Below, piece after piece: positions 16,901 to 61,877 of a DNA stretch of 64,000 nt. The first letter of the stretch is position 1, and the number at the start of each line of letters is the position of its first letter. The stretch is taken from assembly GCA_033675265.1 (NCBI GenBank), contig JAUJYZ010000070.1, positions 111,450-175,449 on the forward strand. The letters run 5' to 3'. Below the pieces are notes generated by a model. The model was given only the letters and a program-made list of their open reading frames with translations. It searched no databases and was not told where the DNA came from. This stretch comes from Actinostola sp. cb2023 (lineage: Eukaryota; Cnidaria; Anthozoa; Actiniaria; Actinostolidae). The position numbers and the translations under genes were made by a program.

Positions 16901-17017
16901 CCTGGCTTTGAAAAACAAAGATCTTCTGTGATAGTATAGTTAGTAGTAGCTGCTTTATCTACAATAGAATAGACAAACAACTGGAATCAATGAATCATGG
17001 AAGAAATGATGAGGCCT

Positions 17018-17816
17018 GTCGTAATACAAATATTGCTAGTGGGCTACCTGTGTCGTAATACAAATATTTCTAGTGGGTTACCTGTGTCGTAATACAAATA
17101 TTGCTAGTGGGCTACCTGTGTCGTAATACAAATATTGCTAGTGGGTTCCCTGTGTCGTAATACAAATATTGCTAGTGGGTTCCCTGTGTCGTAATACAAA
17201 TATTGCTAGTGGGTTCCCTGTGTCGTAATACAAATATTGCTAGTGGGTTCCCTGTGACGTAATACAAATATTGTTAGTGGGTTACCTGTGTCGTAATACA
17301 AATATTGTTAGTGGGTTACCTGTGTCGTAATACAAATATTGCTAGTGGGTTACCTGTGTCGTAATACAAATATTGCTATTGGGTTACCTGTGTCGTAATA
17401 CAAATATTGCTAGTGGGTTACCTATATCGTAATACAAATATTGCTAGTGGTTACCTGTGTCGTAATACAAATATTGCTAGTGGGTTACCTGTGTCGTAAT
17501 ACAAACATTGCTAGTGGGTTACCTGTGTCGTAATACAAATATTGCTAGTGGGTTACCTGTGTCGTAATACAAATATTGCTAGTGGGTTACCTGTGTCGTA
17601 ATACAAATATTGCTAGTGGGTTACCTGTGTCGTAATACAAATATTGCTAGTGGGTTACTTGTGTCGTAATACAATATTGCTAGTGGGTTACCTGTGTCGT
17701 ATTACAAATATTGCTAGTGGGTTCCCTGTGTCGTAATACAAATATTGCTAGTGGGTTACCTGTGTCGTAATACAAATATTGCTAATGGCCGTAGTGGGTT
17801 ACCTGTGTCGTAATAC
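17018..17816. repeat. 34-bp minisatellite, about 23 units
   Basis: Tandem copies of a unit beginning GTCGTAATACAAATATTGCT and ending AGTGGGTTACCTGT, with TTCCCTGT and TTGTTAGT variants clustered in neighbouring units, as expected from local duplication. Length 34 shifts the frame at every unit, so it does not encode a repeat protein. Confidence 0.95.
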
Positions 17817-18297
17817 TCGAATACAGTCACTGATGCCGGCTTGGTTTTCTTTACAACAGCTGTTTGATGAATTCCAAAACTAACACAAATGTTCTTGATC
17901 TGATAAAAGGAAAGAGAAACTGCTATCGCAATTCTGGGGAAAGCATTTTTCTTTAAAAAGTTAATTTACATAATTGGCGCGAAATGTTCACCAACAACGC
18001 GCCCACGTCCCGCGTATCACAAGTTGTTGTACAAAATGGACGACATACAGCAGTTGGTCGATTGTATGTTTTAGTGGCGTTTTTAAACGATATTTTGAGT
18101 GAATACGTTTGAAATTCAACTAATGAACGATCCTAAAATATAACAGGTATGTTTTGTAGTCTTTTTGTTGAGTCAAAAGTACTTTTATGTCAAGATTTTA
18201 GTACTAATTTTCGCACACACATTGAATGGCAGCTTATGTTTTACTTTTCATTGTCTGGCTTGTGGTGATTTTCTTTCAAAAAAGTATTGTTTCTGAG
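17817..18297. other. Intergenic with a possible short first exon
   Basis: Near 18035 an ATG in good context (caaaATGGACGAC) opens MDDIQQLVD, followed by GTATGT, a usable donor. This resembles the ATG-plus-donor arrangement in the 288-bp duplication (MEDNVYIHLLDL then GTAAGT). No downstream exon was identified. Confidence 0.3.
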
Positions 18298-25064: not shown

Positions 25065-25070
25065 AATAAA
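25065..25070 (+). terminator. Polyadenylation signal, right-arm gene
   Basis: AATAAA followed by a TTA-repeat. The mirror signal is at 22516-22521 on the minus strand. The surrounding sequence (GTTTACCCTCTTGAAATAAA) has the form of a LINE/SINE 3' end, so the gene's tail may come from a retroposon. Confidence 0.5.
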
Positions 25071-25828
25071 GTTATTATTATTATTATTATCAGCTCATGT
25101 AATTCTTACTTTGCAGTGGTTAAATAAACTTCTTGTTGAAAACCAACCTTTTGTTCTTAAGCTTGTTACAAGGAGTTGTTCATTGTTTTGGACAACAAAA
25201 GGGTCTATTGTTTTGCTTTAGGCATGACCAGAGAGCTCACCATTTTGCATGGCTAATGAGCTAGCTTACCAGCAACCTTTTTCAATTGGTTCTCGAATCA
25301 TATTTTATTACAAATGTGATTACAGTTATAAGAAGTCAAATGTGACATTCCGTGAATTCACAGTAATTTCTAAGTTATTTATTCAACCTTGGACCTGAAT
25401 GTGGAAAGCAGTAGAAGCGCGCCGAATCAACACAATAGAGGGTTTATCAAAACAATAACAAACCTGTCACACCCCCTTTTTTAATTTATACAGCTCATTA
25501 TTTAATTTTGAATCCTCACTTTGGCTCCCCACTTTGGCTCCCACCTACTTCCACCTACTAAATTAATGAAATCCACCTACCAAACAAGGATTCCTCCCCC
25601 TAAATTAATTAAAACCTCCTCCTTCCTCGTTAAATGATGCTAAGCAGCTACCAGATCCTCACTTTGGATCCTCAATTTCGATCCCACCTACTTCCACCTA
25701 CTAAATTAATGAAATCCACCTACCAAACGGGGGTCGTGCGGTGCGCCCTATACTACTAATATCCGCCATCTTGAAGTGGGCGTAAAATTTAAAATCGCCC
25801 GGCTCGGTTAAAAACTGGACCTAAATAA

Positions 25829-28103: not shown

Positions 28104-28171
28104 AAGGTTATTTCCATCCCACAAGAGTATAGTTTTAAGTTTCAACGTTTCAATGATGTGAAAAGTACGTA

Positions 28172-32990: not shown

Positions 32991-33638
32991 AAAAGAATTG
33001 ATGTCAATAAAGTCTCCAAGGAGCTAGCCAACTTACAGATCGAATGGAAGTTCATACCCGAAAGAGCACCACACATGGGAGGATTTTACGAAAGAATGGT
33101 GAAAAGTCTGAAGATTCCTCTAAAGAAAGTACTTGGCAAGGCGCTCGTCGATGCAGAAGAATTCACCACCATACTGATAGAAATTGAAGGACAAATTAAT
33201 TCTCGACCTCTGACGCAGGTGAGCAGTGACCCCAACGATTTGAATGCAATTACACCAGCACATTTGTTGTTAGGAAAACCACTCTATCAGTTACCAAGCC
33301 CTTCAAAGGATCCTGACAACATGACGGTAGTGAAACGTTGGAGACAGCGCCAAAGAATCGCAACCCACTTCTGGAACAGATGGACCAAAGAGTACCTGAC
33401 AGGACTAACACAGTACAAGAAATGGATGAAGACGGAAACTAACGTGAAGGTTGGAGATATTGTTCTTGTTGGCGAAGATAACACCCCAAGAGGATTGTGG
33501 CGGCTTGGACGAGTGATCGTGACTTACCCAAGTACCCAAGATGGACTCGTGAGAGTGGTAAAGCTCAAGACAGCGAAAGGGGAGCTGAAAAGACCTATCC
33601 ACAAGCTGCACCTCTTAGAAGCAGACGTTAACCCGTAG
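32991..33638 (+). CDS. BEL integrase C-terminal part
   Basis: In the same frame as the preceding segment, separated from it only by the TGA. Carries the catalytic Glu region (HMGGFYERMVKSLK), INSRPLT, and a carboxyl domain with VGDIVLVGED and GLWRLGRV, ending LHLLEADVNP. The frame has no other break. Confidence 0.92.
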   Translation, partial: KRIDVNKVSKELANLQIEWKFIPERAPHMGGFYERMVKSLKIPLKKVLGKALVDAEEFTTILIEIEGQINSRPLTQVSSDPNDLNAITPAHLLLGKPLYQLPSPSKDPDNMTVVKRWRQRQRIATHFWNRWTKEYLTGLTQYKKWMKTETNVKVGDIVLVGEDNTPRGLWRLGRVIVTYPSTQDGLVRVVKLKTAKGELKRPIHKLHLLEADVNP

Positions 33639-35583: not shown

Positions 35584-35658
35584 CTTAGGGTTTACTTTAC
35601 TTTCCAGGAGTGATATCACAACATAGGCCGTTAATGTGGCAGAAGTCGACACACCACC
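35584..35658 (-). CDS. A2M: A2M-family exon 9
   Basis: 25 codons, phase 0 at both ends: GGVSTSATLTAYVVISLLES and KVNPK. Donor AAG|GTACGT, acceptor gcattag. Confidence 0.93.
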
Positions 35659-35670
35659 CTAATGCATAGA

Positions 35671-35862
35671 AAGGTATTAGAGTCGTTTTCGTATGAGTGG
35701 GAAACCTACGTCACGGAGTTACCGTCAAAATCACAGCGCAAAATAATCGCTCAACCAATTAAAATTCTTGGATACCGCACGATCATGGCGCAACTAAATA
35801 CCGTTAAGGTACGGCACGAACCATACCGTAACTACTTTCCACTCGTACGAAAAAGACTCTTT
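35671..35862. mobile_element. 192-bp MITE
   Basis: AGAGTCGTTTTCGTATGAGT and complement (ACTCGTACGAAAAAGACTCT) at its ends. It starts about 13 bp beyond A2M exon 9. The 106-codon plus frame over it is an artefact. Confidence 0.65.
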
Positions 35863-40743: not shown

Positions 40744-40975
40744 TGATGAACAGCGACTCATGTAGTTGAAGACAGTCGCGACGACGCTGACTTGTTCCCC
40801 ACGAACCACAGAGTAGGGAAGAGTGAAGGAAACGAACAACGGCTGGAAGGCTCTGAGAGTAGACGGATCGGCCACGCCCATGCCAGTACTGGACGACATG
40901 GCAAATGCAGTGGTATACCAACTAGTGATAGTGTCTGGCACTTTGACTGTGATCGTCTTTTGACCAGTAGTGTTG
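40744..40975 (-). CDS. A2M: A2M-family exon 2 (A2M domain)
   Basis: Acceptor tttctgtccag, donor CA|GTGAGT. Reads NTTGQKTITVKVPDTITSWY, then FQPLFVSFTLPYSVVRGEQ and VATVFNYMSRC, the conserved core of the A2M domain. Confidence 0.95.
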
Positions 40976-41212
40976 CTGGACAGAAACAAAACATATATAA
41001 TAATAGGTCATAATAGCATGAACTAAGATAAAGTTAGCGAATAATACATCAAACGTGTGTAACGGTCAGTATTCAACTTTTCAGTGTTTCACAGCCGGAG
41101 ATCATGACAATCAATACCTCATCACAGGACATTCATTATGAGGCTATTTTACAAGACGCTTGTCAGCAAGCATAAATACATGTATGACAATATTTAAAAG
41201 GTCGAAGAAAGT

Positions 41213-41526
41213 ACGTTTTGTGTCTTGAACTTCGCATTTATGAGTTATAAATGTTATAAAATCGTGACGTCAATTTGGTTGCACACCGTCACCAATAATA
41301 AAAATAATAAAAATAATAAAAATACAAATCCAATACGTGGGAGAAACATCTTTAAAGTGAAGATTAACATCATTTATTGTTAGTTGTAGACATTTCAACC
41401 AAAATGACGTCAAAATGACGTCGTGATATTAGCATATCACGATTTCAAACCTGTATAACTCGCAAATTCGAAGCTCAAAACACAAAACACTGAAACATCC
41501 CACTATTCACTTCATGTAATCGATTT
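41213..41526. mobile_element. Family B foldback copy (incomplete)
   Basis: Arms TTGTGTCTTGAACTTCGCAT...GAGTTAT and ATAACTCGCAAATTCGAAGC plus CTGAAACATCCCAC, as in 4663-5401. The TTAA ends are not evident. It is next to the left edge of the 35-bp array. Confidence 0.65.
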
Positions 41527-41559
41527 TTTTTTAAAGAAAAAAAATTGCCGTTTCATACG

Positions 41560-44500
41560 CACTTTGCTCTCAGTTTCGAGCCATGCACTCCGAACTGAAG
41601 AGAAAAATAAGTTACCATGAATAGTGGTGTACAAGCTAAATGGTAGTTACCATGACTAGTGGTGTACAAGATACCTAGCTATAGGCCTGGTAGTTACCAT
41701 GACTAGTGGTGTACAAGCTACCAGGTAGTTACCATGACTAGTGGTGTACAAAAAAAAAAATCGTTTCATATGCACTTTGCTCTCAGTTTCGAGCCATGCA
41801 CTCCGAATTGAAGAGAAAAATAAGTTACCATCAATAGTGGTGTACAAGCTACCTGGTAGTTACCATGACTAGTGGTGTACAAGATACCTAGCTATAGGCC
41901 TGGTAGTTACCATGACTAGTGGTGTACAAGCTGCCAGGTAGTTACCATGACTAGTGGTGTACAAGCTACCTGGCCTGGTAGTTACCATGACTAGTGGTGT
42001 ACAAGCTATCTGGTAGTTACCATGACTAGTGGTGTACAAAAAAAAAATCGTTTCATATGCACTTTGCTCTCAGTTTCGAGCAATGCACTCCGAACTGAAG
42101 AGAAAAATAAGTTACCATGACTAGTGGTGTACAAGCTAAATGGTAGTTACCATGACTAGTGGTGTACAAGATACCTAGCTATAGGCCTGGTAGTTACCAT
42201 GACTAGTGGTGTACAAGCTACCAGGTAGTTACCATGACTAGTGGTGTACAAAAAAAAAATCGTTTCATATGCACTTTGCTCTCAGTTTCGAGCCATGCAC
42301 TCCGAACTGAAGAGAAAAATAAGTTACCATGAATAGTGGTGTACAAGCTACCTGGTAGTTACCATGACTAGTGGTGTACAAGATACCTAGCTATAGGCCT
42401 GGTAGTTACCATGACTAGTGGTGTACAAGCTGCCAGGTAGTTACCATGACTAGTGGTGTACAAGCTACCTGGCCTGGTAGTTACCATGACTAGTGGTGTA
42501 CAAGCTATCTGGTAGTTACCATGACTAGTGGTGTACAAAAAAAAAATCGTTTCATATGCACTTTGCTCTCAGTTTCGAGCAATGCACTCCGAACTGAAGA
42601 GAAAAATAAGTTACCATGACTAGTGGTGTACAAGCTAAATGGTAGTTACCATGACTAGTGGTGTACAAGATACCTAGCTATAGGCCTGGTAGTTACCATG
42701 ACTAGTGGTGTACAAGCTACCAGGTAGTTACCATGACTAGTGGTGTACAAAAAAAAAAATCGTTTCATATGCACTTTGCTCTCAGTTTCGAGCAATGCAC
42801 TCCGAACTGAAGAGAAAAATAAGTTACCATGACTAGTGGTGTACAAGCTAAATGGCCTGGTAGTTACCATGACTAGTGGTGTACAAGCTATCTGGTAGTT
42901 ACCATGACTAGTGGTGTACAAAAAAAAAAAATCGTTTCATATGCACTTTGCTCTCAGTTTCGAGCAATGCACTCCGAACTGAAGAGAAAAATAAGTTACC
43001 ATGACTAGTGGTGTACAAGCTAAATGGTAGTTACCATGACTAGTGGTGTACAAGATACCTAGCTATAGGCCTGGTAGTTACCATGACTAGTGGTGTACAA
43101 GCTACCAGGTAGTTACCATGACTAGTGGTGTACAAAAAAAAAATCGTTTCATATGCACTTTGCTCTCAGTTTCGAGCCATGCACTCCGAACTGAAGAGAA
43201 AAATAAGTTACCATGAATAGTGGTGTACAAGCTACCTGGTAGTTACCATGACTAGTGGTGTACAAGATACCTAGCTATAGGCCTGGTAGTTACCATGACT
43301 AGTGGTGTACAAGCTGCCAGGTAGTTACCATGACTAGTGGTGTACAAGCTACCTGGCCTGGTAGTTACCATGACTAGTGGTGTACAAGCTATCTGGTAGT
43401 TACCATGACTAGTGGTGTACAAAAAAAAAAATCGTTTCATATGCACTTTGCTCTCAGTTTCGAGCAATGCACTCCGAACTGAAGAGAAAAATAAGTTACC
43501 ATGACTAGTGGTGTACAAGCTAAATGGTAGTTCCCATGACTAGTGGTGTACAAGATACCTAGCTATAGGCCTGGTAGTTACCATGACTAGTGGTGTACAA
43601 GCTACCAGGTAGTTACCATGACTAGTGGTGTACAAAAAAAAAATCGTTTCATATGCACTTTGCTCTCAGTTTCGAGCAATGCAATCCGAACTGAAGAGAA
43701 AAATAAGTTACCATGACTAGTGGTGTACAAGCTAAATGGTAGTTACCATGACTAGTGGTGTACAAGATACCTAGCTATAGGCCTGGTAGTTACCATGACT
43801 AGTGGTGTACAAGCTACCAGGTAGTTACCATGACTAGTGGTTTACTAAAAAAAAAATCGTTTCATATGCACTTTGCTCTCAGTTTCGAGCCATGCACTCC
43901 GAACTGAAGAGAAAAATAAGTTACCATGAATAGTGGTGTACAAGCTACCTGGTAGTTACCATGACTAGTGGTGTACAAGATACCTAGCTATAGGCCTGGT
44001 AGTTACCATGACTAGTGGTGTACAAGCTGCCAGGTAGTTACCATGACTAGTGGTGTACAAGCTACCTGGCCTGGTAGTTACCATGACTAGTGGTGTACAA
44101 GCTATCTGGTAGTTACCATGACTAGTGGTGTACAAGCTACACTGCAGTTACCATGACTATATAGTGGTGTACAAGCTACATGGTAGTTACCATGACTAGT
44201 GGTGTACAAGCCACCTGGTAGTTACCATGACTATATAGTGGTGTACAAGCTACCTGGTAGTTACCATGACTAGTGGTGTACAAGCTACCTGGTAGTTACC
44301 ATGACTAGTGGTGTACAAGCTACCTGGTAGTTACCATGACTAGTGGTGTACCAGGTAGTTACCATGACTAGTGGTGTACAAGCTACCTGGTAGACACCAT
44401 GACTAGTGGTGTACAAGCTACCTGGTAGTTACCATGACTAGTGGTGTACAAGCTACCAGGTAGTTACCATGACTAGTGGTGTACAAGCAACCTGGTAGTT

Positions 44501-47500
44501 ACCATGACTAGTGGTGTACAAGCTACCTGGTAGTTACCATGACTAGTGGTGTACAAGCTACCTGGTAGTTACCATGACTAGTGGTGTACATGCTACCTGG
44601 TAGTTACCATGACTAGTGGTGTACAAGCTACCTGATAGTTACCATGACTAGTAGTGTACAAGCTACCTGGTAGTTACCATGACTAGTGGTGTACAAGCTA
44701 CCTGGTAGTTACCATGACTAGTGATGTACAAGCTACCTGGTAGTTACCATGACTAGTGGTGTACAAGCTACCTGGTAGTTACCATGACTAGTGGTGTACA
44801 AGCTACCTGGTAGTTACAATGACTAGTGGTGTACAAGATACCTGGTAGTTACCATGACTAATGGTGTACAAGCTACCTGCATGTAGTTACCATGACTAGT
44901 GGTGTACAAGCTACCTGGTAGTTACCATGACTAGTGGTGTACAAGCTACCTGGTAGTTACCATGACTAGAGGTGTACAAGCTACCTGGTAGTTACCATGA
45001 CTAGTGGTGTACAAGCTACCTGGTAGTTACCATGACTAGTGGTGTACAAGCTACCTGGTAGTTACCATGACTAGTGGTGTACAAGCTACCTGGTAGTTAC
45101 CATGACTAGTGGTGTACAAGCTACCTGGTAGTTACCATGACTAGTGGTGTACAAGCTACCTGGTAGTTACCATGACTAGTGGTGTACAAGCTACCTGGTA
45201 GTTACAATGACTAGTGGTGTACAAGCTACCTGGTAGTTACCATGACTAGTGGTCACAAGCTACCTGGTAGTTACCATGACTAGTGGTGTACAAGCTACCT
45301 GGTAGTTACCATGACTAGTGGTGTACAAGCTACCTGGTAGTTACCATGACTAGTGGTGTACAAGCTACCTGGTAGTTACAATGACTAGTGGTGTACAAGA
45401 TACCTGGTAGTTACCATGACTAATGGTGTACAAGCTACCTGCATGTAGTTACCATGATTAGTGGTGTTTAAGCTACCTGGTAGTTACCATGACTAGTGGT
45501 GTACAAGCTACCTGGTAGTTACCATGACTAGAGGTGTACAAGCTACCTGGTAGTTACCATGACTAGTGGTGTACAAGCTACCTGGTAGTTACCATGACTA
45601 GTGGTGTACAAGCTACCTGGTAGTTACCATGACTAGTGGTGTACAAGCTACCTGGTAGTTACCATGACTAGTGGTGTACAAGCTACCTGGTAGTTACCAT
45701 GACTAGTGGTGTACAAGCTACCTGGTAGTTACCATGACTAGTGGTGTACAAGCTACCTGGTAGTTACCATGACTAGTGGTCACAAGCTACCTGGTAGTTA
45801 CCATGACTAGTGGTGTACAAGCTACCTGGTAGTTACCATGACTAGTGGTGTACAAGCTACCTGGTAGTTACCATGACTAGTGGTGTACAAGCTACCTTGT
45901 AGTTACCATGACTAGTGGTGTACAAGCTACCTGGTAGTTACCATGACTAGTGGTGTACAAGCTACCTGGTAGTTACCATGACTAGTGGTGTACAAGCTAC
46001 CTGGTAGTTACCATGACTAGAGGTGTACAAGCTACCTGGTAGTTACCATGACTAGTGGTGTACAAGCTACCTGGTAGTTACCATGACTAGTGGTGTACAA
46101 GCTACCTGCATGTAGTTACCATGACTAGTGGTGTACAAGCTACCTGGTGTAGTTACCATGACTAGTGGTGTACAAGCTACCTGGTAGTTACCATGACTAG
46201 TGGTGTACAAGTTACCTGATAGTTACCATGACTAGTGGTGTACAAGCTACCTGGTAGTTACCATGACTAGTGGTGTACAAGATACCTGGTAGTTACCATG
46301 ACTAGTGGTGTACAAGCTACCTGGTAGTTACCATGACTAGTTGTGTAGAACATACGTGGTAGTTACCATGACTAGTGGTGTACAAGCAACCTGGTAGTTA
46401 CCATGACTAGTGGTGTACAAGCTACCTGGTAGTTACCATGACTAGTGGTGTACAAGCTACCTGGTAGTTACCATGACTAGTGGTCACAAGCTACCTGGTA
46501 GTTACCATGACTAGTGGTGTACAAGCTACCTGGTAGTTACCATGACTAGTGGTGTACAAGCTACCTGGTAGTTACCATGACTAGTGGTGTACAAGCTACC
46601 TGGTAGTTACCATGACTAGTGGTGTACAAGCTACCTGGTAGTTACCATGACTAGTGGTGTACAAGCTACCTGGTAGTTACCATGACTAGTGGTGTACAAG
46701 CTACCTGGTAGTTACCATGACTAGTGGTCACAAGCTACCTGGTAGTTACCATGACTAGTGGTGTACAAGCTACCTGGTAGTTACCATGACTAGTGGTGTA
46801 CAAGCTACCTTGTAGTTACCATGACTAGTGGTGTACAAGCTACCTGGTAGTTACCATGACTAGTGGTGTACAAGCTACCTGGTAGTTACCATGACTAGTG
46901 GTGTACAAGCTACCTGGTAGTTACCATGACTAGAGGTGTACAAGCTACCTGGTAGTTACCATGACTAGTGGTGTACAAGCTACCTGGTAGTTACCATGAC
47001 TAGTGGTGTACAAGCTACCTGCATGTAGTTACCATGACTAGTGGTGTACAAGCTACCTGGTGTAGTTACCATGACTAGTGGTGTACAAGCTACCTGGTAG
47101 TTACCATGACTAGTGGTGTACAAGCTACCTGATAGTTACCATGACTAGTGGTGTACAAGCTACCTGGTAGTTACCATGACTAGTGGTGTACAAGATACCT
47201 GGTAGTTACCATGACTAGTGGTGTACAAGCTACCTGGTAGTTACCATGACTAGTTGTGTAGAACATACCTGGTAGTTACCATGACTAGTGGTGTACAAGC
47301 TACCTGGTAGTTACCATGACTAGTGGTGTACAAGCTACCTGGTAGTTACCATGACTAGTGGTGTACAAGCTACCTGGTAGTTACCATGACTAGTGGTCAC
47401 AAGCTACCTGGTAGTTACCATGACTAGTGGTGTACAAGCTACCTGGTAGTTACCATGACTAGTGGTGTACAAGCTACCTGGTAGTTACCATGACTAGTGG

Positions 47501-50500
47501 TGTACAAGCTACCTGGTAGTTACCATGACTAGTGGTGTACAAGCTACCTGGTAGTTACCATGACTAGAGGTGTACAAGCTACCTGGTAGTTACCATGACT
47601 AGTGGTGTACAAGCTACCTGGTAGTTACCATGACTGGTGGTGTACAAGCTACCTGCATGTAGTTACCATGACTAGTGGTGTACAAGCTACCTGGTGTAGT
47701 TACCATGACTAGTGGTGTACAAGCTACCTGGTAGTTACCATGACTAGTGGTGTACAAGCTACCTGATAGTTACCATGACTAGTGGTGTACAAGCTACCTG
47801 GTGTAGTTACCATGACTAGTGGTGTACAAGCTAAATGGTAGTTACCATGACTAGTGGTGTACAAGATACCTAGCTATAGGCCTGGTAGTTACCATGACTA
47901 GTGGTGTACAAGCTACCAGGTAGTTACCATGACTAGTGGTGTACAAAAAAAAAAAATCGTTTCATATGCACTTTGCTCTCAGTTTCGAGCCATGCACTCC
48001 GAACTGAAGAGAAAAATAAGTTACCATGAATAGTGGTGTACAAGCTACCTGGTAGTTACCATGACTAGTGGTGTACAAGATACCTAGCTATAGGCCTGGT
48101 AGTTACCATGACTAGTGGTGTACAAGCTGCCAGGTAGTTACCATGACTAGTGGTGTACAAGCTACCTGGCCTGGTAGTTACCATGACTAGTGGTGTACAA
48201 GCTATCTGGTAGTTACCATGACTAGTGGTGTACAAAAAAAAAATCGTTTCATATGCACTTTGCTCTCAGTTTCGAGCAATGCACTCCGAACTGAAGAGAA
48301 AAATAAGTTACCATGACTAGTGGTGTACAAGCTAAATGGTAGTTACCATGACTAGTGGTGTACAAGATACCTAGCTATAGGCCTTGTAGTTACCATGACT
48401 AGTGGTGTACAAGCTACCAGGTAGTTACCATGACTAGTGGTGTACAAAAAAAAAATCGTTTCATATGCACTTTGCTCTCAGTTTCGAGCAATGCAATCCG
48501 AACTGAAGATAAAAATAAGTTACCATGACTAGTGGTGTACAAGCTAAATGGCCTGGTAGTTACCATGACTAGTGGTGTACAAGCTATCTGGTAGTTACCA
48601 TGACTAGTGGTGTACAAAAAAAAAATCGTTTCATATGCACTTTGCTCTCAGTTTCGAGCAATGCACTCCGAACTGAAGAGAAAAATAAGTTACCATGACT
48701 AGTGGTGTACAAGCTAAATGGTAGTTACCATGACTAGTGGTGTACAAGATACCTAGCTATAGGCCTGGTAGTTACCATGACTAGTGGTGTACAAGCTACC
48801 AGGTAGTTACCATGACTAGTGGTGTACAAAAAAAAAATCGTTTCATATGCACTTTGCTCTCAGTTTCGAGCCATGCACTCCGAACTGAAGAGACAAATAA
48901 GTTACCATGAATAGTGGTGTACAAGCTACCTGGTAGTTACCATGACTAGTGGTGTACAAGATACCTAGCTATAGGCCTGGTAGTTACCATGACTAGTGGT
49001 GTACAAGCTGCCAGGTAGTTACCATGACTAGTGGTGTACAAGCTACCTGGCCTGGTAGTTACCATGACTAGTGGTGTACAAGCTATCTGGTAGTTACCAT
49101 GACTAGTGGTGTACAAAAAAAAAATCGTTTCATATGCACTTTGCTCTCAGTTTCGAGCAATGCAATCCGAACTGAAGAGAAAAATAAGTTACCATGACTA
49201 GTGGTGTACAAGCTAAATGGTAGTTACCATGACTACTGGTGTACAAGATACCTAGCTATAGGCCTGGTAGTTACCATGACTAGTGGTGTACAAGCTACCA
49301 GGTAGTTACCATGACTAGTGGTTTACAAAAAAAAAATCGTTTCATATGCACTTTGCTCTCAGTTTCGAGCCATGCACTCCGAACTGAAGAGAAAAATAAG
49401 TTACCATGAATAGTGGTGTACAAGCTACCTGGTAGTTACCATGACTAGTGGTGTACAAGATACCTAGCTATAGGCCTGGTAGTTACCATGACTAGTGGTG
49501 TACAAGCTGCCAGGTAGTTACCATGACTAGTGGTGTACAAGCTACCTGGCCTGGTAGTTACCATGACTAGTGGTGTACAAGCTATCTGGTAGTTACCATG
49601 ACTAGTGGTGTACAAGCTACACTGCAGTTACCATGACTATATAGTGGTGTACAAGCTACATGGTAGTTACCATGACTAGTGGTGTACAAGCCACCTGGTA
49701 GTTACCATGACTATATAGTGGTGTACAAGCTACCTGGTAGTTACCATGACTAGTGGTGTACAAGCTACCTGGTAGTTACCATGACTAGTGGTGTACAAGC
49801 TACCTGGTAGTTACCATGACTAGTGGTGTACAAGCTACCTGGTTGTTACCATGACTAGTGGTGTACAAGCTACCTGGTAGTTACCATGACTAGTGGTGTA
49901 CAAGCTACCTGGTAGTTACCATGACTAGTGGTGTACCAGGTAGTTACCATGACTAGTGGTGTACAAGCTACCTGGTAGACACCATGACTAGTGGTGTACA
50001 AGCTACCTGGTAGTTACCATGACTAGTGGTGTACAAGCTACCAGGTAGTTACCATGACTAGTGGTGTACAAGCAACCTGGTAGTTACCATGACTAGTGGT
50101 GTACAAGCTACCTGGTAGTTACCATGACTAGTGGTGTACAAGCTACCTGGTAGTTACCATGACTAGTGGTGTACATGCTACCTGGTAGTTACCATGACTA
50201 GTGGTGTACAAGCTACCTGATAGTTACCATGACTAGTAGTGTACAAGCTACCTGGTAGTTACCATGACTAGTGGTGTACAAGCTCCCTGGTAGTTACCAT
50301 GACTAGTGATGTACAAGCTACCTGGTAGTTACCATGACTAGTGGTGTACAAGCTACCTGGTAGTTACCATGACTAGTGGTGTACAAGCTACCTGGTAGTT
50401 ACAATGACTAGTGGTGTACAAGATACCTGGTAGTTACCATGACTAATGGTGTACAAGCTACCTGCATGTAGTTACCATGACTAGTGGTGTACAAGCTACC

Positions 50501-53500
50501 TGGTAGTTACCATGACTAGTGGTGTACAAGCTACCTGGTAGTTACCATGACTAGTGGTGTACAAGCTACCTGGTAGTTACCATGACTAGAGGTGTACAAG
50601 CTACCTGGTAGTTACCATGACTAGTGGTGTACAAGCTACCTGGTAGTTACCATGACTAGTGGTGTACAAGCTACCTGCATGTAGTTACCATGACTAGTGG
50701 TGTACAAGCTACCTGGTGTAGTTACCATGACTAGTGGTGTACAAGCTACCTGGTAGTTACCATGACTAGTGGTGTACAAGCTACCTGATAGTTACCATGA
50801 CTAGTGGTGTACAAGCTACCTGGTAGTTACCATGACTAGTGGTGTACAAGATACCTGGTAGTTACCATGACTAGTGGTGTACAAGCTACCTGGTAGTTAC
50901 CATGACTAGTTGTGTAGAACATACCTGGTAGTTACCATGACTAGTGGTGTACAAGCTACCTGGTAGTTACCATGACTAGTGGTGTACAAGCTACCTGGTA
51001 GTTACCATGACTAGTGGTGTACAAGCTACCTGGTAGTTACCATGACTAGTGGTCACAAGCTACCTGGTAGTTACCATGACTAGTGGTGTACAAGCTACCT
51101 GGTAGTTACCATGACTAGTGGTGTACAAGCTACCTGGTAGTTACCATGACTAGTGGTGTACAAGCTACCTGGTAGTTACCATGACTAGTGGTGTACAAGC
51201 TACCTGGTAGTTACCATGACTAGAGGTGTACAAGCTACCTGGTAGTTACCATGACTAGTGGTGTACAAGCTACCTGGTAGTTACCATGACTGGTGGTGTA
51301 CAAGCTACCTGCATGTAGTTACCATGACTAGTGGTGTACAAGCTACCTGGTGTAGTTACCATGACTAGTGGTGTACAAGCTACCTGGTAGTTACCATGAC
51401 TAGTGGTGTACAAGCTACCTGATAGTTACCATGACTAGTGGTGTACAAGCTACCTGGTGTAGTTACCATGACTAGTGGTGTACAAGCTAAATGGTAGTTA
51501 CCATGACTAGTGGTGTACAAGATACCTAGCTATAGGCCTGGTAGTTACCATGACTAGTGGTGTACAAGCTACCAGGTAGTTACCATGACTAGTGGTGTAG
51601 AAAAAAAAAAATCGTTTCATATGCACTTTGCTCTCAGTTTCGAGCCATGCACTCCGAACTGAAGAGAAAAATAAGTTACCATGAATAGTGGTGTACAAGC
51701 TACCTGGTAGTTACCATGACTAGTGGTGTACAAGATACCTAGCTATAGGCCTGGTAGTTACCATGACTAGTGGTGTACAAGCTGCCAGGTAGTTACCATG
51801 ACTAGTGGTGTACAAGCTACCTGGCCTGGTAGTTACCATGACTAGTGGTGTACAAGCTATCTGGTAGTTACCATGACTAGTGGTGTACAAAAAAAAAATC
51901 GTTTCATATGCACTTTGCTCTCAGTTTCGAGCAATGCACTCCGAACTGAAGAGAAAAATAAGTTACCATGACTAGTGGTGTACAAGCTAAATGGTAGTTA
52001 CCATGACTAGTGGTGTACAAGATACCTAGCTATAGGCCTGGTAGTTACCATGACTAGTGGTGTACAAGCTACCAGGTAGTTACCATGACTAGTGGTGTAC
52101 AAAAAAAAAAAATCGTTTCATATGCACTTTGCTCTCAGTTTCGAGCAATGCACTCCGAACTGAAGATAAAAATAAGTTACCATGACTAGTGGTGTACAAG
52201 CTAAATGGCCTGGTAGTTACCATGACTAGTGGTGTACAAGCTATCTGGTAGTTACCATGACTAGTGGTGTACAAAAAAAAAATCGTTTCATATGCACTTT
52301 GCTCTCAGTTTCGAGCAATGCACTCCGAACTGAAGAGAAAAATAAGTTACCATGACTAGTGGTGTACAAGCTAAATAGTAGTTACCATGACTAGTGGTGT
52401 ACAAGATACCTAGCTATAGGCCTGGTAGTTACCATGACTAGTGGTGTACAAGCTACCAGGTAGTTACCATGACTAGTGGTGTACAAAAAAAAAATAGTTT
52501 CATATGCACTTTGCTCTCAGTTTCGAGCCATGCACTCCGAACTGAAGAGAAAAATAAGTTACCATGAATAGTGGTGTACAAGCTACCTGGTAGTTACCAT
52601 GACTAGTGGTGTACAAGATACCTAGCTATAGGCCTGGTAGTTACCATGACTAGTGGTGTACAAGCTGCCAGGTAGTTACCATGACTAGTGGTGTACAAGC
52701 TACCTGGCCTGGTAGTTACCATGACTAGTGGTGTACAAGCTATCTGGTAGTTACCATGACTAGTGGTGTACAAAAAAAAAATCGTTTCATATGCACTTTG
52801 CTCTCAGTTTCGAGCAATGCACTCCGAACTGAAGAGAAAAATAAGTTACCATGACTAGTGGTGTACAAGCTAAATGGTAGTTACCATGACTAGTGGTGTA
52901 CAAGATACCTAGCTATAGGCCTGGTAGTTACCATGACTAGTGGTGTACAAGCTACCAGGTAGTTACCATGACTAGTGGTGTACAAAAAAAAAATCGTTTC
53001 ATATGCACTTTGCTCTCAGTTTCGAGCAATGCAATCCGAACTGAAGAGAAAAATAAGTTACCATGACTAGTGGTGTACAAGCTAAATGGTAGTTACCATG
53101 ACTACTGGTGTACAAGATACCTAGCTATAGGCCTGGTAGTTACCATGACTAGTGGTGTACAAGCTACCAGGTAGTTACCATGACTAGTGGTTTACAAAAA
53201 AAAAATCGTTTCATATGCACTTTGCTCTCAGTTTCGAGCCATGCACTCCGAACTGAAGAGAAAAATAAGTTACCATGAATAGTGGTGTACAAGCTACCTG
53301 GTAGTTACCATGACTAGTGGTGTACAAGATACCTAGCTATAGGCCTGGTAGTTACCATGACTAGTGGTGTACAAGCTGCCAGGTAGTTACCATGACTAGT
53401 GGTGTACAAGCTACCTGGCCTGGTAGTTACCATGACTAGTGGTGTACAAGCTATCTGGTAGTTACCATGACTAGTGGTGTACAAGCTACACTGCAGTTAC

Positions 53501-56500
53501 CATGACTATATAGTGGTGTACAAGCTACATGGTAGTTACCATGACTAGTGGTGTACAAGCCACCTGGTAGTTACCATGACTATATAGTGGTGTACAAGCT
53601 ACCTGGTAGTTACCATGACTAGTGGTGTACAAGCTACCTGGTAGTTACCATGACTAGTGGTGTACAAGCTACCTGGTAGTTACCATGACTAGTGGTGTAC
53701 AAGCTACCTGGTTGTTACCATGACTAGTGGTGTACAAGCTACCTGGTAGTTACCATGACTAGTGGTGTACAAGCTACCTGGTAGTTACCATGACTAGTGG
53801 TGTACCAGGTAGTTACCATGACTAGTGGTGTACAAGCTACCTGGTAGACACCATGACTAGTGGTGTACAAGCTACCTGGTAGTTACCATGACTAGTGGTG
53901 TACAAGCTACCAGGTAGTTACCATGACTAGTGGTGTACAAGCAACCTGGTAGTTACCATGACTAGTGGTGTACAAGCTACCTGGTAGTTACCATGACTAG
54001 TGGTGTACAAGCTACCTGGTAGTTACCATGACTAGTGGTGTACATGCTACCTGGTAGTTACCATGACTAGTGGTGTACAAGCTACCTGATAGTTACCATG
54101 ACTAGTAGTGTACAAGCTACCTGGTAGTTACCATGACTAGTGGTGTACAAGCTACCTGGTAGTTACCATGACTAGTGATGTACAAGCTACCTGGTAGTTA
54201 CCATGACTAGTGGTGTACAAGCTACCTGGTAGTTACCATGACTAGTGGTGTACAAGCTACCTGGTAGTTACAATGACTAGTGGTGTACAAGATACCTGGT
54301 AGTTACCATGACTAATGGTGTACAAGCTACCTGCATGTAGTTACCATGACTAGTGGTGTACAAGCTACCTGGTAGTTACCATGACTAGTGGTGTACAAGC
54401 TACCTGGTAGTTACCATGACTAGAGGTGTACAAGCTACCTGGTAGTTACCATGACTAGTGGTGTACAAGCTACCTGGTAGTTACCATGACTAGTGGTGTA
54501 CAAGCTACCTGGTAGTTACCATGACTAGTGGTGTACAAGCTACCTGGTAGTTACCATGACTAGTGGTGTACAAGCTACCTGGTAGTTACCATGACTAGTG
54601 GTGTACAAGCTACCTGGTAGTTACCATGACTAGTGGTGTACAAGCTACCTGGTAGTTACCATGACTAGTGGTGTACAAGCTACCTGGTAGTTACCATGAC
54701 TAGTGGTGTACAAGCTACCTGGTAGTTACCATGACTAGTGGTCACAAGCTACCTGGTAGTTACCATGACTAGTGGTGTACAAGCTACCTGGTAGTTACCA
54801 TGACTAGTGGTGTACAAGCTACCTTGTAGTTACCATGACTAGTGGTGTACAAGCTACCTGGTAGTTACCATGACTAGTGGTGTACAAGCTACCTGGTAGT
54901 TACCATGACTAGTGGTGTACAAGCTACCTGGTAGTTACCATGACTAGAGGTGTACAAGCTACCTGGTAGTTACCATGACTAGTGGTGTACAAGCTACCTG
55001 GTAGTTACCATGACTAGTGGTGTACAAGCTACCTGCATGTAGTTACCATGACTAGTGGTGTACAAGCTACCTGGTGTAGTTACCATGACTAGTGGTGTAC
55101 AAGCTACCTGGCCTGGTAGTTACCATGACTAGTGGTGTACAAGCTATCTGGTAGTTACCATGACTAGTGGTGTACAAGCTACACTGCAGTTACCATGACT
55201 ATATAGTGGTGTACAAGCTACATGGTAGTTACCATGACTAGTGGTGTACAAGCCACCTGGAAGTTACCATGACTAGTTGTGTAGAACATACGTGGTAGTT
55301 ACCATGACTAGTGGTGTACAAGCTACCTGGTAGTTACCATGACTAGTGGTGTACAAGCTACCTGGTAGTTACCATGACTAGTGGTCATAAGCTACCTGGT
55401 AGTTACCATGACTAGTGGTGTACAAGCTACCTGGTAGTTACCATGACTAGTGGTGTACAAGCTACCTGGTAGTTACCATGACTAGTGGTGTACAAGCTAC
55501 CTGGTAGTTACCATGACTAGTGGTGTACAAGCTACCTGGTAGTTACCATGACTAGTGGTGTACAAGCTACCTGGTAGTTACCATGACTAGAGGTGTACAA
55601 GCTACCTGGTAGTTACCATGACTAGTGGTGTACAAGCTACCTGGTAGTTACCATGACTAGTGGTGTACAAGCTTCCTGCATGTAGTTACCATGACTAGTG
55701 GTGTACAAGCTACCTGGTGTAGTTACCATGACTAGTGGTGTACAAGCTACCTGGTAGTTACCATGACTAGTGGTGTACAAGTTACCTGACAGTTACCATG
55801 ACTAGTGGTGTACAAGCTACCTGGTAGTTACCATGACTAGTGGTGTACAAGATACCTGGTAGTTACCATGACTAGTGGTGTACAAGCTACCTGGTAGTTA
55901 CCATGACTAGTTGTGTAGAACATACGTGGTAGTTACCATGACTAGTGGTGTACAAGCTACCTGGTAGTTACCATGACTAGTGGTGTACAAGCTACCTGGT
56001 AGTTACCATGACTAGTGGTCATAAGCTACCTGGTAGTTACCATGACTAGTGGTGTACAAGCTACCTGGTAGTTACCATGACTAGTGGTGTACAAGCTACC
56101 TGGTAGTTACCATGACTAGTGGTGTACAAGCTACCTGGTAGTTACCATGACTAGTGGTGTACAAGCTACCTGGTAGTTACCATGACTAGTGGTCACAAGC
56201 TACCTGGTAGTTACCATGACTAGTGGTGTACAAGCTACCTGGTAGTTACCATGACTAGTGGTGTACAAGCTACCTTGTAGTTACCATGACTAGTGGTGTA
56301 CAAGCTACCTGGTAGTTACCATGACTAGTGGTGTACAAGCTACCTGGTAGTTACCATGACTAGTGGTGTACAAGCTACCTGGTAGTTACCATGACTAGAG
56401 GTGTACAAGCTACCTGGTAGTTACCATGACTAGTGGTGTACAAGCTACCTGGTAGTTACCATGACTAGTGGTGTACAAGCTACCTGCATGTAGTTACCAT

Positions 56501-57645
56501 GACTAGTGGTGTACAAGCTACCTGGTGTAGTTACCATGACTAGTGGTGTACAAGCTACCTGGTAGTTACCATGACTAGTGGTGTACAAGCTACCTGATAG
56601 TTACCATGACTAGTGGTGTACAAGCTACCTGGTAGTTACCATGACTAGTGGTGTACAAGATACCTGGTAGTTACCATGACTAGTGGTGTACAAGCTACCT
56701 GGTAGTTACCATGACTAGTTGTGTAGAACATACCTGGTAGTTACCATGACTAGTGGTGTACAAGCTACCTGGTAGTTACCATGACTAGTGGTGTACAAGC
56801 TACCTGGTAGTTACCATGACTAGTGGTGTACAAGCTACCTGGTAGTTACCATGAATGGTGGTCACAAGCTACCTGGTAGTTACCATGACTAGTGGTGTAC
56901 AAGCTACCTGGTAGTTACCATGACTAGTGGTGTACAAGCTACCTGGTAGTTACCATGACTAGTGGTGTACAAGCTACCTGGTAGTTACCATGACTAGAGG
57001 TGTACAAGCTACCTGGTAGTTACCATGACTAGTGGTGTACAAGCTACCTGGTAGTTACCATGACTAGTGGTGTACAAGCTACCTGCATGTAGTTACCATG
57101 ACTAGTGGTGTACAAGCTACCTGGTAGTTACCATGACTAGTGGTGTACAAGATACCTGGTAGTTACCATGACTAGTGGTGTACAAGCTACCTGATAGTTA
57201 CCATGACTAGTGGTGTACAAGCTACCTGGTAGTTACCATGACTAGTGGTGTACAAGCTACCTGGTAGTTACCATGACTAGTGGTGTACAAGCTACCTGGT
57301 AGTTACCATGACTAGTGGTGTAGAACATACCTGGTAGTTACCATGACTAGTGGTGTACAAGATACCTGGTAGTTACCATGACTAGTGGTGTACAAGCTAC
57401 CTGGTAGTTACCATGACTAGTGGTGTACAAGCTACCTGGTAGTTACCATGACTAGTGGTGTACAAGCTACCTGGTAGTTACCATGACTAGTGGTGTACAA
57501 GCTACCTGGTAGTTACCACGACTAGTGGTTTACAAGCTACCTGGTAGTTACCATGACTAGTGGTGTACAAGCTACCTGGTGGTTACCATGACTAGTGGTG
57601 TACAAGCTACCTGGTAGTTACCATGACTAGTGGTGTACAAGCTAC
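41560..57645. repeat. 35-bp intronic minisatellite, about 16 kb, with composite blocks
   Basis: Tandem units of 35 bp (GTAGTTACCATGACTAGTGG plus TGTACAAGCTACCTG). Simple 35-bp blocks (about 44.15-47.85, 49.6-51.5 and 53.5-57.6 kb) alternate with composite blocks (41.6-44.1, 47.85-49.6 and 51.5-53.5 kb). In the composites a roughly 75-bp segment, A8-A12 then TCGTTTCATATGCACTTTGC and on, is inserted every few units. That segment is also present once in the unique left flank (about 41545-41612). A marker variant (ACTGCAGTTACCATGACTAT) recurs at 44141, 49621, 53490 and 55183, showing kilobase-scale duplications. On the gene's strand each unit reads ACTACCAG|GTAGCTTG, the exon 1 donor junction. 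Confidence 0.97.
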
Positions 57646-57862
57646 CTGGTAGTTTGCTCTGTCCATAACCATGTTTCAGGGACTTTCCACGGTCCTGCAG
57701 TGAAGGACGGGGAATTCTCGATTGGTGGTGGTGTTCTTTTCTGTTGAAGTTTGTTCTGATTTTGGAATCTTGAGCCAGAACGAAGTTCACCATTACAATA
57801 TTTAGAATAATCGAGCATCCGGATCCAGCGAGAGCAGTACCAGACGTATGTATCCGGTATAC
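57646..57862 (-). CDS. A2M: A2M-family exon 1 in window (bait/PETW region)
   Basis: Acceptor tatttcag before 57862; two bases complete the previous codon. It encodes a polar, proline-rich stretch probably spanning the end of the variable bait region, then VPETWLWTEQTT. The donor is CCAG|GTAGCT at 57646/57645, supported by phase (AG plus C of the next exon). The last 8 exon bases and the donor are also part of the 35-bp minisatellite unit that fills the following intron. Confidence 0.85.
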
Positions 57863-57883: not shown

Positions 57884-58167
57884 TACAGTCATTTGCAAAA
57901 ATTCTGGCCGCCACGATATATCAATATATCAATATATCGGGTGCATTATGGGTAATTAAATAATACTATTTTGAGTTTCCTAATTTATTAAATGAAGCAA
58001 AATACAAACGTAAGACTAAAATAAACATTATACTAATTATTTCTACCAACTTTGCTGGCGTTAACCCGCTTTAAGGGGAATTTTCGATTATTTAATTACC
58101 CATAATGCACCCGATATATTGATATATTGATATTTCTTAGCGGCCAGAATTTTGGCAAATGACTGTA
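57884..58167. mobile_element. TA-ended MITE, 284 bp
   Basis: TACAGTCATTTGCAAAAATT at the left and GGCAAATGACTGTA at the right; arms contain CTGGCCGC and ATTATGGGTAATTAAATAAT. The first ten bases match family E. It lies 22 bp beyond A2M exon 1. Confidence 0.8.
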
Positions 58168-59555: not shown

Positions 59556-59627
59556 GGATTTCGAATGAATCAACCACAGTAAACAATCAGGATTTAGAAA
59601 CCATGTTTTCAAACGAGTCGGTAGTGT
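59556..59627. repeat. 72-bp terminal repeat, left copy
   Basis: GGATTTCGAATGAATCAACC to GAGTCGGTAGTGT. Repeated in direct orientation at 61713-61784, so it frames the gag-protease frame. An inverted copy of the wider sequence is at 61786-61880. No TG...CA ends or target duplication could be defined. Confidence 0.75.
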
Positions 59628-61668
59628 ATAGTTTCATGTATTTTGTACGTTCAGATTTCTGCTCGGGTTCTGGGTGAAGTCCTGCGTAACTGTAGCCAAT
59701 GAGCACGTCCACTGATCCTGTAGGCCTTGTAATTTCTTCTTTGCTTATTCCTTTGAACAGGTGAACAACATTGCCAACGTTTACACTCTGAATATTTGAC
59801 GTGATTCTTTCTATTCCATACACAACAATGTTCACAGTTTTTCCTTCTTTGTCGATGAGCGGGAGTAGATATTTCTTGGAAGATAGTTGTTCCACTTTCC
59901 CTCCAACAGTGACGATAGATAATTCTACATCTTTACCTTGTAACTTTTCAGCTTTGGCTTTTTCAAAGGTGATAAAACACAACGATGCGGCATTGTCCCA
60001 AAGAACGGTAACTGTTCCCTTGGGGGTCTTGATGACTTGATATTGAAGTAGGCACCTTTCACTGTAGTTGGATGTTTTGCACATGGACACGCCAAATTCT
60101 TCCTTGTTCTCGTGTAGCGTCTTGTGATGATTCGAAGTGCATCCACTTTCTCCACAATTCTTCTTTCTTTTACAATCACGACTGAGATGTCCACTCTTTA
60201 AACAAGACCAGCAGGCTTTCTTTTCCTTGATCAGTTCCATTCTCTCGCTTAATGACTTTAAAAGATAAACTCTGCATTCATCAGTCCAGTGGTTTGCATC
60301 ACCATGTAGTAAACATCTCCGATGGGATTTCACAGTTTCTGGTTTTGTTGTTCTTTCTTCTTTGTTCTCTTTTCCAGTAGTGTAATGAGTCTGAACAAGT
60401 GGTCTTGATGAAAAGGTGTTTGTGCGTAAATCTGCAGCGTCATATTCCATCGCTCTTTTCTGATTAATTAAGAACTCCAGAAGACTTGGAAACTTGTCCG
60501 TTTTGTCGATTTTGCTTGAGCTGTCGGTCACCATTTTGGCCCATTCTCTTCTTATGTCAGGTGGCAGCTTCTTCTCTATCACACTAACAGAACTGGTTGT
60601 CGTTATTTCCTTTTCCAATCCAAGATTGACGAGATCTCTGTAACTGTCTTCTACGACGCTCACGAATTCAATGAATTTCTTGTTGTCATTCTCTTTGATT
60701 AGTTTGAAGCTTTGTATGGTGTTAATTACAACATCAGTTATCTTTGCTGGATCAGCGTACTTTTCATCCAAACGTTTCCACATCTTCTCTATGTCGTCGT
60801 CCACACTTTTTACGAGATTGAGAGACTCTTTACTAAGACATGATCTCAGTGTATACGGAGCAGAGTCCTTTGATAAATTTGGCATGACTTGTTTATGGAA
60901 ATCGGTCTTGAATCTAGCGTAGTTTCTCAAGTTTCCATCAAAAGTTGGCAGCTTTACCTTTTCCAAACGCACACTACAGGATTCTTGCTTTCGATTTTCA
61001 GCGGTTTTCTTCTCGATTTCATCGGTTATTCTGTTATAACATTTCTGTATTCCCTTCATCCACGATATTTCAGACATCATATCTTCTTGACTCAATAACT
61101 CGATGTATTTGTCATTGGCTTCCTTGCACTCGTTGAAAGCGGTATTCATTTCTTTGTTTACTTTACTGAAAATTCTTGATATTACTAGGGGTTCTTGGTC
61201 TGTATCTTCTTTCTCAATCAGATTTTCAACATCATCTAATGTTTGCTTAAACATTGCTTCTTTCATGTCTCTCTTCATTCGTGCTTGTTCCACCATTCTT
61301 TTGAGCTTCGAGCATTCTTTTTCTTGATGAGTCTTTTGTTCTTCTTGAAGTTTAAATGCGTTTTCCGTCGTTTTAATTGCTTTCTCGTAATATATATGTT
61401 TTTCCATTGCTTGCGTGAAACGCTCTTGTAACTCTGTTATCCATGGTTCTTCTTTTGCACAATCTTCGTCACTTAAAAAGGTGCAGTAGTTATCGTGTTT
61501 CGCTTCTACATTCGTCCAGGCTTCGTTCAATCCCATGAAGATTCTTTTGACAATATCCATGCTCCTTCTTTCATCAAGCGATTTGATAAGCTCGTTTTCT
61601 TTTCTGGTGAATTTTGCTTTAGCATTTCTTCTACGATTCCTTGCATCTTCGGCCATATCCTCGTCCAT
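59587..61668 (-). CDS. BEL-like Gag-protease frame without Pol
   Basis: The first ATG is at 61668 (the frame is open back to 61743, from a TTG); it reads without a break to a TGA at 59587, about 693 residues. It has a charged coiled amino half, then KLPTFDGNLRNYARFKTDF (BEL/Pao gag-like region), Cys/His knuckles (CLLHGDANHWTDEC; CWSCLKSGHLSRDC), a protease-like domain and VDVLIGYSYAGL. The expected active-site triad D-S/T-G reads D-N-A (LWDNAASLCF), so activity is doubtful. The end (YMKLYTTDSFENMVSKS) lies in the 72-bp repeat. No RT, RNase H or integrase follows. It differs strongly from the BEL element at 28 kb. Confidence 0.85.
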   Translation of the reverse strand: MDEDMAEDARNRRRNAKAKFTRKENELIKSLDERRSMDIVKRIFMGLNEAWTNVEAKHDNYCTFLSDEDCAKEEPWITELQERFTQAMEKHIYYEKAIKTTENAFKLQEEQKTHQEKECSKLKRMVEQARMKRDMKEAMFKQTLDDVENLIEKEDTDQEPLVISRIFSKVNKEMNTAFNECKEANDKYIELLSQEDMMSEISWMKGIQKCYNRITDEIEKKTAENRKQESCSVRLEKVKLPTFDGNLRNYARFKTDFHKQVMPNLSKDSAPYTLRSCLSKESLNLVKSVDDDIEKMWKRLDEKYADPAKITDVVINTIQSFKLIKENDNKKFIEFVSVVEDSYRDLVNLGLEKEITTTSSVSVIEKKLPPDIRREWAKMVTDSSSKIDKTDKFPSLLEFLINQKRAMEYDAADLRTNTFSSRPLVQTHYTTGKENKEERTTKPETVKSHRRCLLHGDANHWTDECRVYLLKSLSERMELIKEKKACWSCLKSGHLSRDCKRKKNCGESGCTSNHHKTLHENKEEFGVSMCKTSNYSERCLLQYQVIKTPKGTVTVLWDNAASLCFITFEKAKAEKLQGKDVELSIVTVGGKVEQLSSKKYLLPLIDKEGKTVNIVVYGIERITSNIQSVNVGNVVHLFKGISKEEITRPTGSVDVLIGYSYAGLHPEPEQKSERTKYMKLYTTDSFENMVSKS

Positions 61669-61712
61669 GTGTACTCGTAGCGTCTTTAGTTGTTCTTTCA
61701 CATGACTTCGAC

Positions 61713-61877
61713 GGATTTCGAATGAATCAACCACAGTAAACAATCAGGATTTAGAAACCATGTTTTCAAACGAGTCGGTAGTGTTCGAAATCTGAACGTA
61801 CAAAATACATGAAACTATACACTACCGACTCGTTTGAAAACATGGTTTCTAAATCCTGATTGTTTACTGTGGTTGAT

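Follow-up and report, generated by a model that had tools for sequence, protein, structure and literature searches.

How does a gene come to carry hundreds of copies of its own splice donor directly behind the genuine one, and which came first, the edge of the exon or the array of copies? The question is raised by a 64,000-nt stretch of the genome of Actinostola sp. cb2023 (contig JAUJYZ010000070.1, positions 111,450 to 175,449; hereafter, the window), whose minus strand carries an alpha-2-macroglobulin (A2M)-type gene with a 35-bp minisatellite in one of its introns. Actinostola sp. is described as a deep-sea vent anemone (PMC10803348). In all likelihood, the array is what has been called a mirage, formed by duplication of the exon-intron boundary and subsequent growth; other junctions of the gene family would have followed the same course, with the genuine donor selected by exon definition and decoy products removed by nonsense-mediated decay. 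The tandem unit found here indeed includes exon and intron sequence of one junction.

Exon A, its donor and the array

The features on which the argument rests are given below. The exon letters A to V are labels coined in this analysis, and a slash within a sequence marks the splice boundary.

57646..57862, minus strand: exon A of the A2M family gene, containing PETWLWTEQTT and ending in phase 2 (A2M domain and human A2M alignment across the junction)
57646..57654, minus strand: last 9 coding bases of exon A (AACTACCAG), also within the 35-bp consensus unit
57644..57645, minus strand: genuine 5′ splice site, the GT of CAG/GTAGCTTG, first in the series (assigned by homology)
41549..57654, minus strand: 35-bp minisatellite (GTAGCTTGTACACCACTAGTCATGGTAACTACCAG), 396 unit cores, 16.1 kb
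40976..41548, minus strand: non-array 3′ part of the exon-A intron, 573 nt, with acceptor TTTGTTTCTGTCCAG
40744..40975, minus strand: exon B, NTTGQKTITVKVPDTITSW...NYMSRCSS, the first Ser split by the intron

The gene is a member of the A2M family: the thioester motif GCGEQNM is present, and the product matches the Pfam domains A2M (E 3.3e-31) and TED_complement. Exon A is 217 nt long and its 3′ edge reads ...GAGCAAACTACCAG/GTAGCTTGTACACC, while exon B begins at 40975 behind a good acceptor (TTTGTTTCTGTCCAG). The joined frame PETWLWTEQTT/SNTTGQKTITVKVPDTITSW, in which the boundary is coded by ACT ACC AG/C AAC, continues through Pfam A2M, and the alignment with human A2M crosses the junction with a one-residue gap. 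The best protein matches (66, 68 and 61% identical) are from Actinostola sp. cb2023 and are related copies from the same genome as the window.

Exon A ends AACTACCAG/GTAGCTTG; the repeat starts 9 nt inside the exon, and the array occupies 97% of the 16,670-nt (16.67-kb) intron. The preliminary description of this DNA was right in placing an array at the exon edge and its repeat unit in the intron, but the overlap is 9 nt, not 8, and the array spans 41549-57654. Its claim that hundreds of donor copies stand behind the genuine one agrees with the exact counts (194 of ACTACCAGGTAGCTTG and 242 of CAGGTAGCTTG, genuine donor counted), and use of a later donor does bring an immediate in-frame stop, the frame reading ACC AGG TAG. 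The spacing between neighboring units is exactly 35 bp in 287 of 395 cases. Many repeats keep the AG/GT signals, with [CA]AG/GT[AG] retained in 269 of the 396 segments.

The order of events can be read from seven copies of the gene, all of which have the exon-A intron at the same place and in the same phase. Three copies bear an array, and both array ends are shared among them (AACTACCAG/GTAGCTTG and CATGGTAACT/TATTTTTCTCTTCAG). They are the window gene, with 16.1 kb, and the relatives C313a and C313b, whose arrays are 0.68 and 0.78 kb long, so that array length is unstable between gene copies of one assembly. The four remaining copies are array-free, and their exon A ends as ACTATCAG/GTAGGG, ACAATCAG/GTAGCC, ACTATCAG/GTAGGC and ACTATTAG/GTAGGG. 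The phase is the same, and the introns that follow start with GTAG and are about 150-690 nt long. Three of these copies, some of which may be alleles, differ from each other by 3-7 of 234 positions in exon B; the fourth (C1230-1) stands apart (21-24/234), and the four represent at least two lineages. Since neither the exon end nor the phase nor the GTAG start is tied to the presence of an array, the exon edge and its donor are older than the array. We read the array as a tandem duplication of the exon-intron boundary. Gain of the intron itself by tandem duplication of AGGT was rejected, as the intron is present at the same position and phase in the four array-free copies.

Growth of the array and choice of the first donor

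The array contains 60 distinct unit sequences and, in addition, 26 copies of a non-unit spacer of ~60 nt, which form three clusters:

41607..43916, minus strand: higher-order cluster 1, 11 spacer copies (TTTTTCTCTTCAGTTCGGAGTGCA...), recaptured distal array flank
48016..49396, minus strand: higher-order cluster 2, 7 spacer copies
51671..53265, minus strand: higher-order cluster 3, 8 spacer copies

The spacer sequence equals that which borders the array on its distal side (GGTAACTTATTTTTCTCTTCAGTTCGGAGTG...), and the arrays of both C313 relatives have the same distal border; the window array has therefore folded its own border into itself. Pairs of blocks within the array are 95-100% identical over 0.5-1.6 kb at many offsets (among the best 25 listed), which points either to recent duplication of blocks or to effects of the assembly.

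Assembly effects underlie the alternative that survives best, namely, that the array is real but that its 16-kb length and higher-order blocks are in part an assembly product, the true size being nearer 0.7-0.8 kb. The length derives from an assembly that is described as built from PacBio long reads of a 20-kb library with LoRDEC and DBG2OLC (PMC10803348), and the best block pairs, ~1 kb in length and offset by 3.6-3.9 and 9.4 kb, have identities of 98.7-99.9%. We consider this alternative worth keeping in mind but improbable: the 60 unit sequences stand in an ordered layout, both unique flanks lie on one contig, and the same assembly contains other large arrays in the family, e.g., that of 4.39 kb at exon S of the copy C957-1.

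A separate observation concerns the junction bases (TACCAGGTAG) of the 35-bp unit. In the array (41549-57654), these bases occur in a greater number of different variants than the other parts of the unit, and they sit in a near-perfect palindrome (CTACCAGGTAG). No consistent excess of variants at the junction bases was seen in the seven exon-Q arrays examined.

It follows from the sequence that the cell would have to pick the first of many identical donors. The 9 nt before and the 26 nt after the splice boundary are the same at the true donor and at the first decoys, so that whatever sets the true donor apart has to be sought in more upstream parts of the exon or in exon definition. Exon definition across the 217 nt of exon A is the probable basis of the choice: U1 would be recruited by the real exon (through its acceptor and through exonic enhancers that lie upstream of the donor at a distance of more than 9 nt) rather than by the decoys, and transcripts that use a decoy would be directed to nonsense-mediated decay, since every decoy adds AGG TAG in frame. 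Between the window gene and C313b, 13 synonymous and 7 nonsynonymous changes were counted over 375 codons of the coding exons (synonymous divergence dS 0.051, nonsynonymous divergence dN 0.008, dN/dS 0.16). The coding sequence of the window gene is therefore under constraint, and this suggests that, as a rule, the array would not prevent accurate splicing.

Two other candidate explanations were not supported. RNA folding was rejected as the basis of donor choice, since the first donor is not more accessible than its copies; four units fold no better than arrays of shuffled units (-40.4 vs. -31.0, standard deviation 8.8). Selection against decoys close to the exon is unsupported as well: the first 48 segments behind the true donor all retain [CA]AG/GT[AG], and donor losses are concentrated in spacer-holding, mostly distal, stretches.

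One can also imagine that the repeated CAG/GT serves the gene, either in recursive (ratchet) splicing via zero-length exons or as a decoy switch that lowers expression. AG and GT do stand back to back in intact units, such that splicing from the donor to any such CAG would leave an identical donor in place, and any decoy donor leads to the immediate AGG TAG stop. However, by eye, no pyrimidine tract is present in the 28 nt through the CAG of the unit (GTACACCACTAGTCATGGTAACTACCAG), the exon-S unit described below is without an AG/GT junction (...TTTTAT/GTAAGT), array length differs more than 20-fold between gene copies, and four gene copies have no array at the exon-A junction at all. A function of this kind is therefore unlikely.

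Order of events and copied boundaries at other junctions

In a search of the genome (424,152,321 bases in 1594 contigs, with up to 3 mismatches allowed), the 35-bp unit was found at 347 places, all on one strand, and a reversed-pattern control was found at 0. As counted on the stretches at hand, 313 of these places are in the window, 14 in C313a and 20 in C313b, and both C313 arrays lie at exon-A edges of related gene copies. Since all matches fall at the window array or at the same exon edge in the two C313 copies, the unit is not a dispersed repeat at this sensitivity; a dispersed satellite or a transposon-borne repeat was rejected, no matches being present at unrelated places. A comparison with corals and other cnidarians, made at the protein level, revealed the same residue positions without an indel in most aligned stony corals, with a one-residue gap in Orbicella (P0009).

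These results bear on the reverse order, in which the array came first and the exon recruited a unit as its donor. The short overlap with the exon (9 nt) and the penultimate exon-A codon, which differs from that of the array-free copies, are what such an origin has in its favor. It was rejected as very unlikely, since the array-free copies hold the same exon edge (end position, phase and GTAG intron start), the residue positions are the same in most aligned corals, and the genome search placed all unit matches either here or at the corresponding exon edge of the C313 copies. Of the two origins that the preliminary description had left open, expansion from the exon edge is thus upheld and recruitment of an array unit contradicted by the comparison of exon 3′ ends and intron starts that it had proposed, here run on gene copies of the same genome. 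The variation in array length that it suggested looking for is present between these copies, and the contrary outcome that it had named, relatives with unrelated repeats, was not encountered within this genome, where related arrays share the 35-bp unit.

Ten units of the window array keep ACTATCAGG (window positions 57217, 56620, 54112, 51445, 50811, 50243, 47789, 47155, 46242 and 44658). This is the exon end of two array-free gene copies, at which the window exon A reads ACTACCAG (Ile to Thr). One such unit is present in C313a and none in C313b. The ten units are possibly founder relics or the result of exchange between array and exon.

The array ends point to a founder that would have read ...CA[AACT]ACCAG/GTAGCTTGTACACCACTAGTCATGGT[AACT]TATTTTTC, with AACT tetranucleotides 35 bp apart flanking the piece to be duplicated. 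A 35-bp duplication between the AACT copies, in an ancestor common to the window gene, C313a and C313b, would have created the second donor, a first step that may have been primed by microhomology. Unequal exchange or slippage would then have extended the array to 0.7-0.8 kb in two copies and to 16.1 kb in the window gene, where growth would also have recaptured the distal flank as the 26 spacers. The same duplication process would have operated at at least four other junctions of the family.

Copied boundaries are found at five junctions (exons A, Q, I, S and V), four of them donors and one an acceptor. The units are 34, 35, 55, 88 and 109 bp long and the repeats reach 9, 14, 25, 30 and about 57 nt into coding sequence; at four of the five junctions (three besides exon A), some gene copies are in the single-copy state. 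The following of these features lie in the window:

17803..17899, minus strand: exon Q (IKNICVSFGIHQTAVVKKTKPASVTVFEYYDT), ending GTATTACGACACAG/GTAACC
17017..17816, minus strand: second mirage, at the exon-Q donor, a 34-bp array (GTAACCCACTAGCAATATTTGTATTACGACACAG)
35629..35683, minus strand: single-copy form of the third mirage site, 25 nt of intron end and 30 nt of exon I

The exon-Q array fills its intron except for the last 58 nt. An insertion of 9 nt interrupts its first unit, and Tandem Repeats Finder places the array at 17017-17788, past this unit. The 34-bp unit copies 14 coding nt (the YYDT codons) at all seven loci with the edge read and matches 186 places in the genome, with C313 and C558 among the matches listed. 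At the exon-I acceptor, the single copy in the window has AACG just before it and at its end; the 55-bp unit (25 intron and 30 exon nt) is present in 7.1 copies in C313a and 6.1 copies in C313b, and four further loci have one match each. The 88-bp unit at the donor of exon S (VDSSKAFY), with 25 coding nt, is present in ~50 copies in C957-1 (the 4.39-kb array), ~10 in C313b and 3 in C313a, and the junction is single-copy in C957-2, C1230-1 and C1230-3. The donor of exon V (TICA), with a 109-bp unit that includes ~57 coding nt, carries arrays at three loci and is single at three.

Two of the exon-V array loci are probably one and the same, with a single difference over 989 nt, and the exon-Q loci C957-3 and C1230-3 are identical over 285 nt. 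C1230 may in part be a second assembly of the C957 region (stretches L013-L032; 0/285 and 1/989 differences). Because some loci may be assembled twice, we counted sites and not loci.

Two further observations touch these junctions. In the exon-I acceptor arrays (L009:39-430 and L011:864-1196), there are 6-7 copies, and the frame is carried on by the exon behind the final one; the spliceosome must therefore take the last copy, the mirror image of the donor arrays. The deposited model QZH41_015940 (P0014) ends ...YYDTGNPLVIFVLRH, i.e., with translated intron and the first array unit past the exon-Q donor, and this C-terminal end is probably an error of annotation caused by the array.

In a placement test, 16 of 55 array clusters overlapped an A2M exon end, compared with 5.2 ± 2.2 (maximum 14) in 2000 shuffles; related sites in this test are not independent, and it omits the window exon-Q array (owing to its Tandem Repeats Finder start) and the C1230 207.5-kb array (exon hidden by N). 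That the match of unit and exon is a coincidence, an ordinary intronic minisatellite ending at an exon, can be dismissed as having next to no probability: minisatellites are frequent (the 55 clusters in the stretches scanned) and ~5 are expected at A2M exon ends, but the repeat continues into coding sequence at five different junctions, single-copy states exist at three sites besides exon A, and the comparison of gene copies contradicts chance abutment. Kinase-exon controls (five stretches, 18.5 kb, too small to settle whether A2M genes are special) contained no minisatellite of at least 3 copies with a unit of at least 20 bp. Two further minisatellites of 30 and 31 bp, at 6681-9468 and 15085-15273 of the window, lie away from recognised A2M exon edges, and their consensus units are without a CAG/GT donor.

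Several points weigh against boundary duplication followed by growth, or against parts of this reading. Exon A has Thr in the array-bearing genes, Ile in the array-free copies and Ile, Val or Leu in corals, and some exchange between array and exon A is possible, with 10 units keeping the ATC form. No array-free state was found at exon Q among the seven loci with the edge read. The AACT microhomology is read from array ends and not from a single-copy allele. The choice of donor is deduced from DNA, and the accessibility calculated with ViennaRNA is 0.25 for the first donor and 0.24-0.28 for the copies. Exon C of C313a is split over two frames (L009:3575-3810), by a frameshift or a sequence error, so that not every array-bearing copy need be functional. 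Finally, the window gene and C313b could be diverged alleles instead of separate genes: the two differ at 4 of 234 positions in exon B, and the reported heterozygosity of the genome is 0.9% (PMC10803348). In that case, the array would be a length polymorphism, with its origin unchanged.

Mirages in amphioxus and in Actinostola

Mirages have been described in the amphioxus genes for Adh3, troponin C, the globins BflGb6 and BflGb9 and PGBD5, where they are reported to be harmless to normal splicing, and the globin paper proposes them as a route of intron gain (PMC3087553, PMC3902484). As far as these papers describe them, they are likewise minisatellite-like tandem repeats across an exon-intron boundary, with AG/GT signals, at a donor or acceptor, and their copy number differs, there between haplotypes or assemblies and here between gene copies. 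The Actinostola arrays are mirages and thus of a known kind, here very large, recurrent and in a cnidarian. What the preliminary description called unusual calls for qualification: the architecture is that published for amphioxus and recurs at five junctions of one family. The descriptions of BflGb6 and PGBD5 give 3-6 and 2-7 units, in contrast to 396 units in 16 kb here. The Actinostola case further differs from those described in that five junctions of one cnidarian gene family are affected, with the pre-duplication state present at four, and in that higher-order repeats recapture the distal flank. Somatic instability is said to occur in the amphioxus Adh3 mirage.

In the model of Rogers and in the potato RNA-dependent RNA polymerase (RdRp) gene, as described, tandem duplication at or near splice signals likewise yields spare donors and acceptors, and in potato RdRp, duplication of a boundary made a new intron (PMC4974935). 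The exon-A intron, in contrast, is not new; it was already there and has been made longer by the copies. Ordinary intronic minisatellites (variable number tandem repeats) share with the Actinostola array the head-to-tail units, near-identical blocks and higher-order repeats, whereas the first Actinostola unit consists in part of coding sequence and includes the donor of the gene itself. In the literature searched, no mirages were found to be reported for anemones or for macroglobulin genes.

Other elements are present in the window. The intron between exons P and Q contains a near-perfect palindrome (21827-25762), with arms of ~1.8 kb that are 93-100% complementary in pieces and with the innermost arms found 315 nt apart; it is a recent inverted duplication or an assembly fold-back. 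A BEL/Pao-type retroelement (28157-33635, plus strand, opposite to the host gene) lies in the intron between exons K and L and has DUF1759, aspartyl protease, Peptidase_A17, reverse transcriptase and integrase zinc-binding domains in three open frames. Upstream of exon A, a second BEL/Pao-like gag part (59590-61743, minus strand) has a 718-aa open frame with DUF1759 and DUF1758, and an imperfect inverted repeat of ~284 bp (73%; 57884-58167), resembling a miniature inverted-repeat transposable element, ends 22 bp upstream of the exon.

Mirages, which the papers found report from amphioxus, thus occur in a cnidarian and can set the length of an intron. The gene is a natural test of 5′ splice-site choice, and since its copies hold the before and after states at several junctions, the birth and growth of splice-site arrays become datable. 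A broader proposal, which we advance only tentatively and consider doubtful, is that exon-intron junctions are preferred birthplaces of minisatellites here, with AACT/AACG repeats beside splice signals priming duplications that are tolerated, as identical decoys would be disregarded in exon definition, act as an engine of intron growth and maybe rewrite the last codons of exons. If true, splice-site arrays would represent continuing intron growth, from about 0.2 to 16.7 kb at one intron, and exchange with an array may rewrite the last codons of an exon, as in the change from Ile to Thr in exon A.

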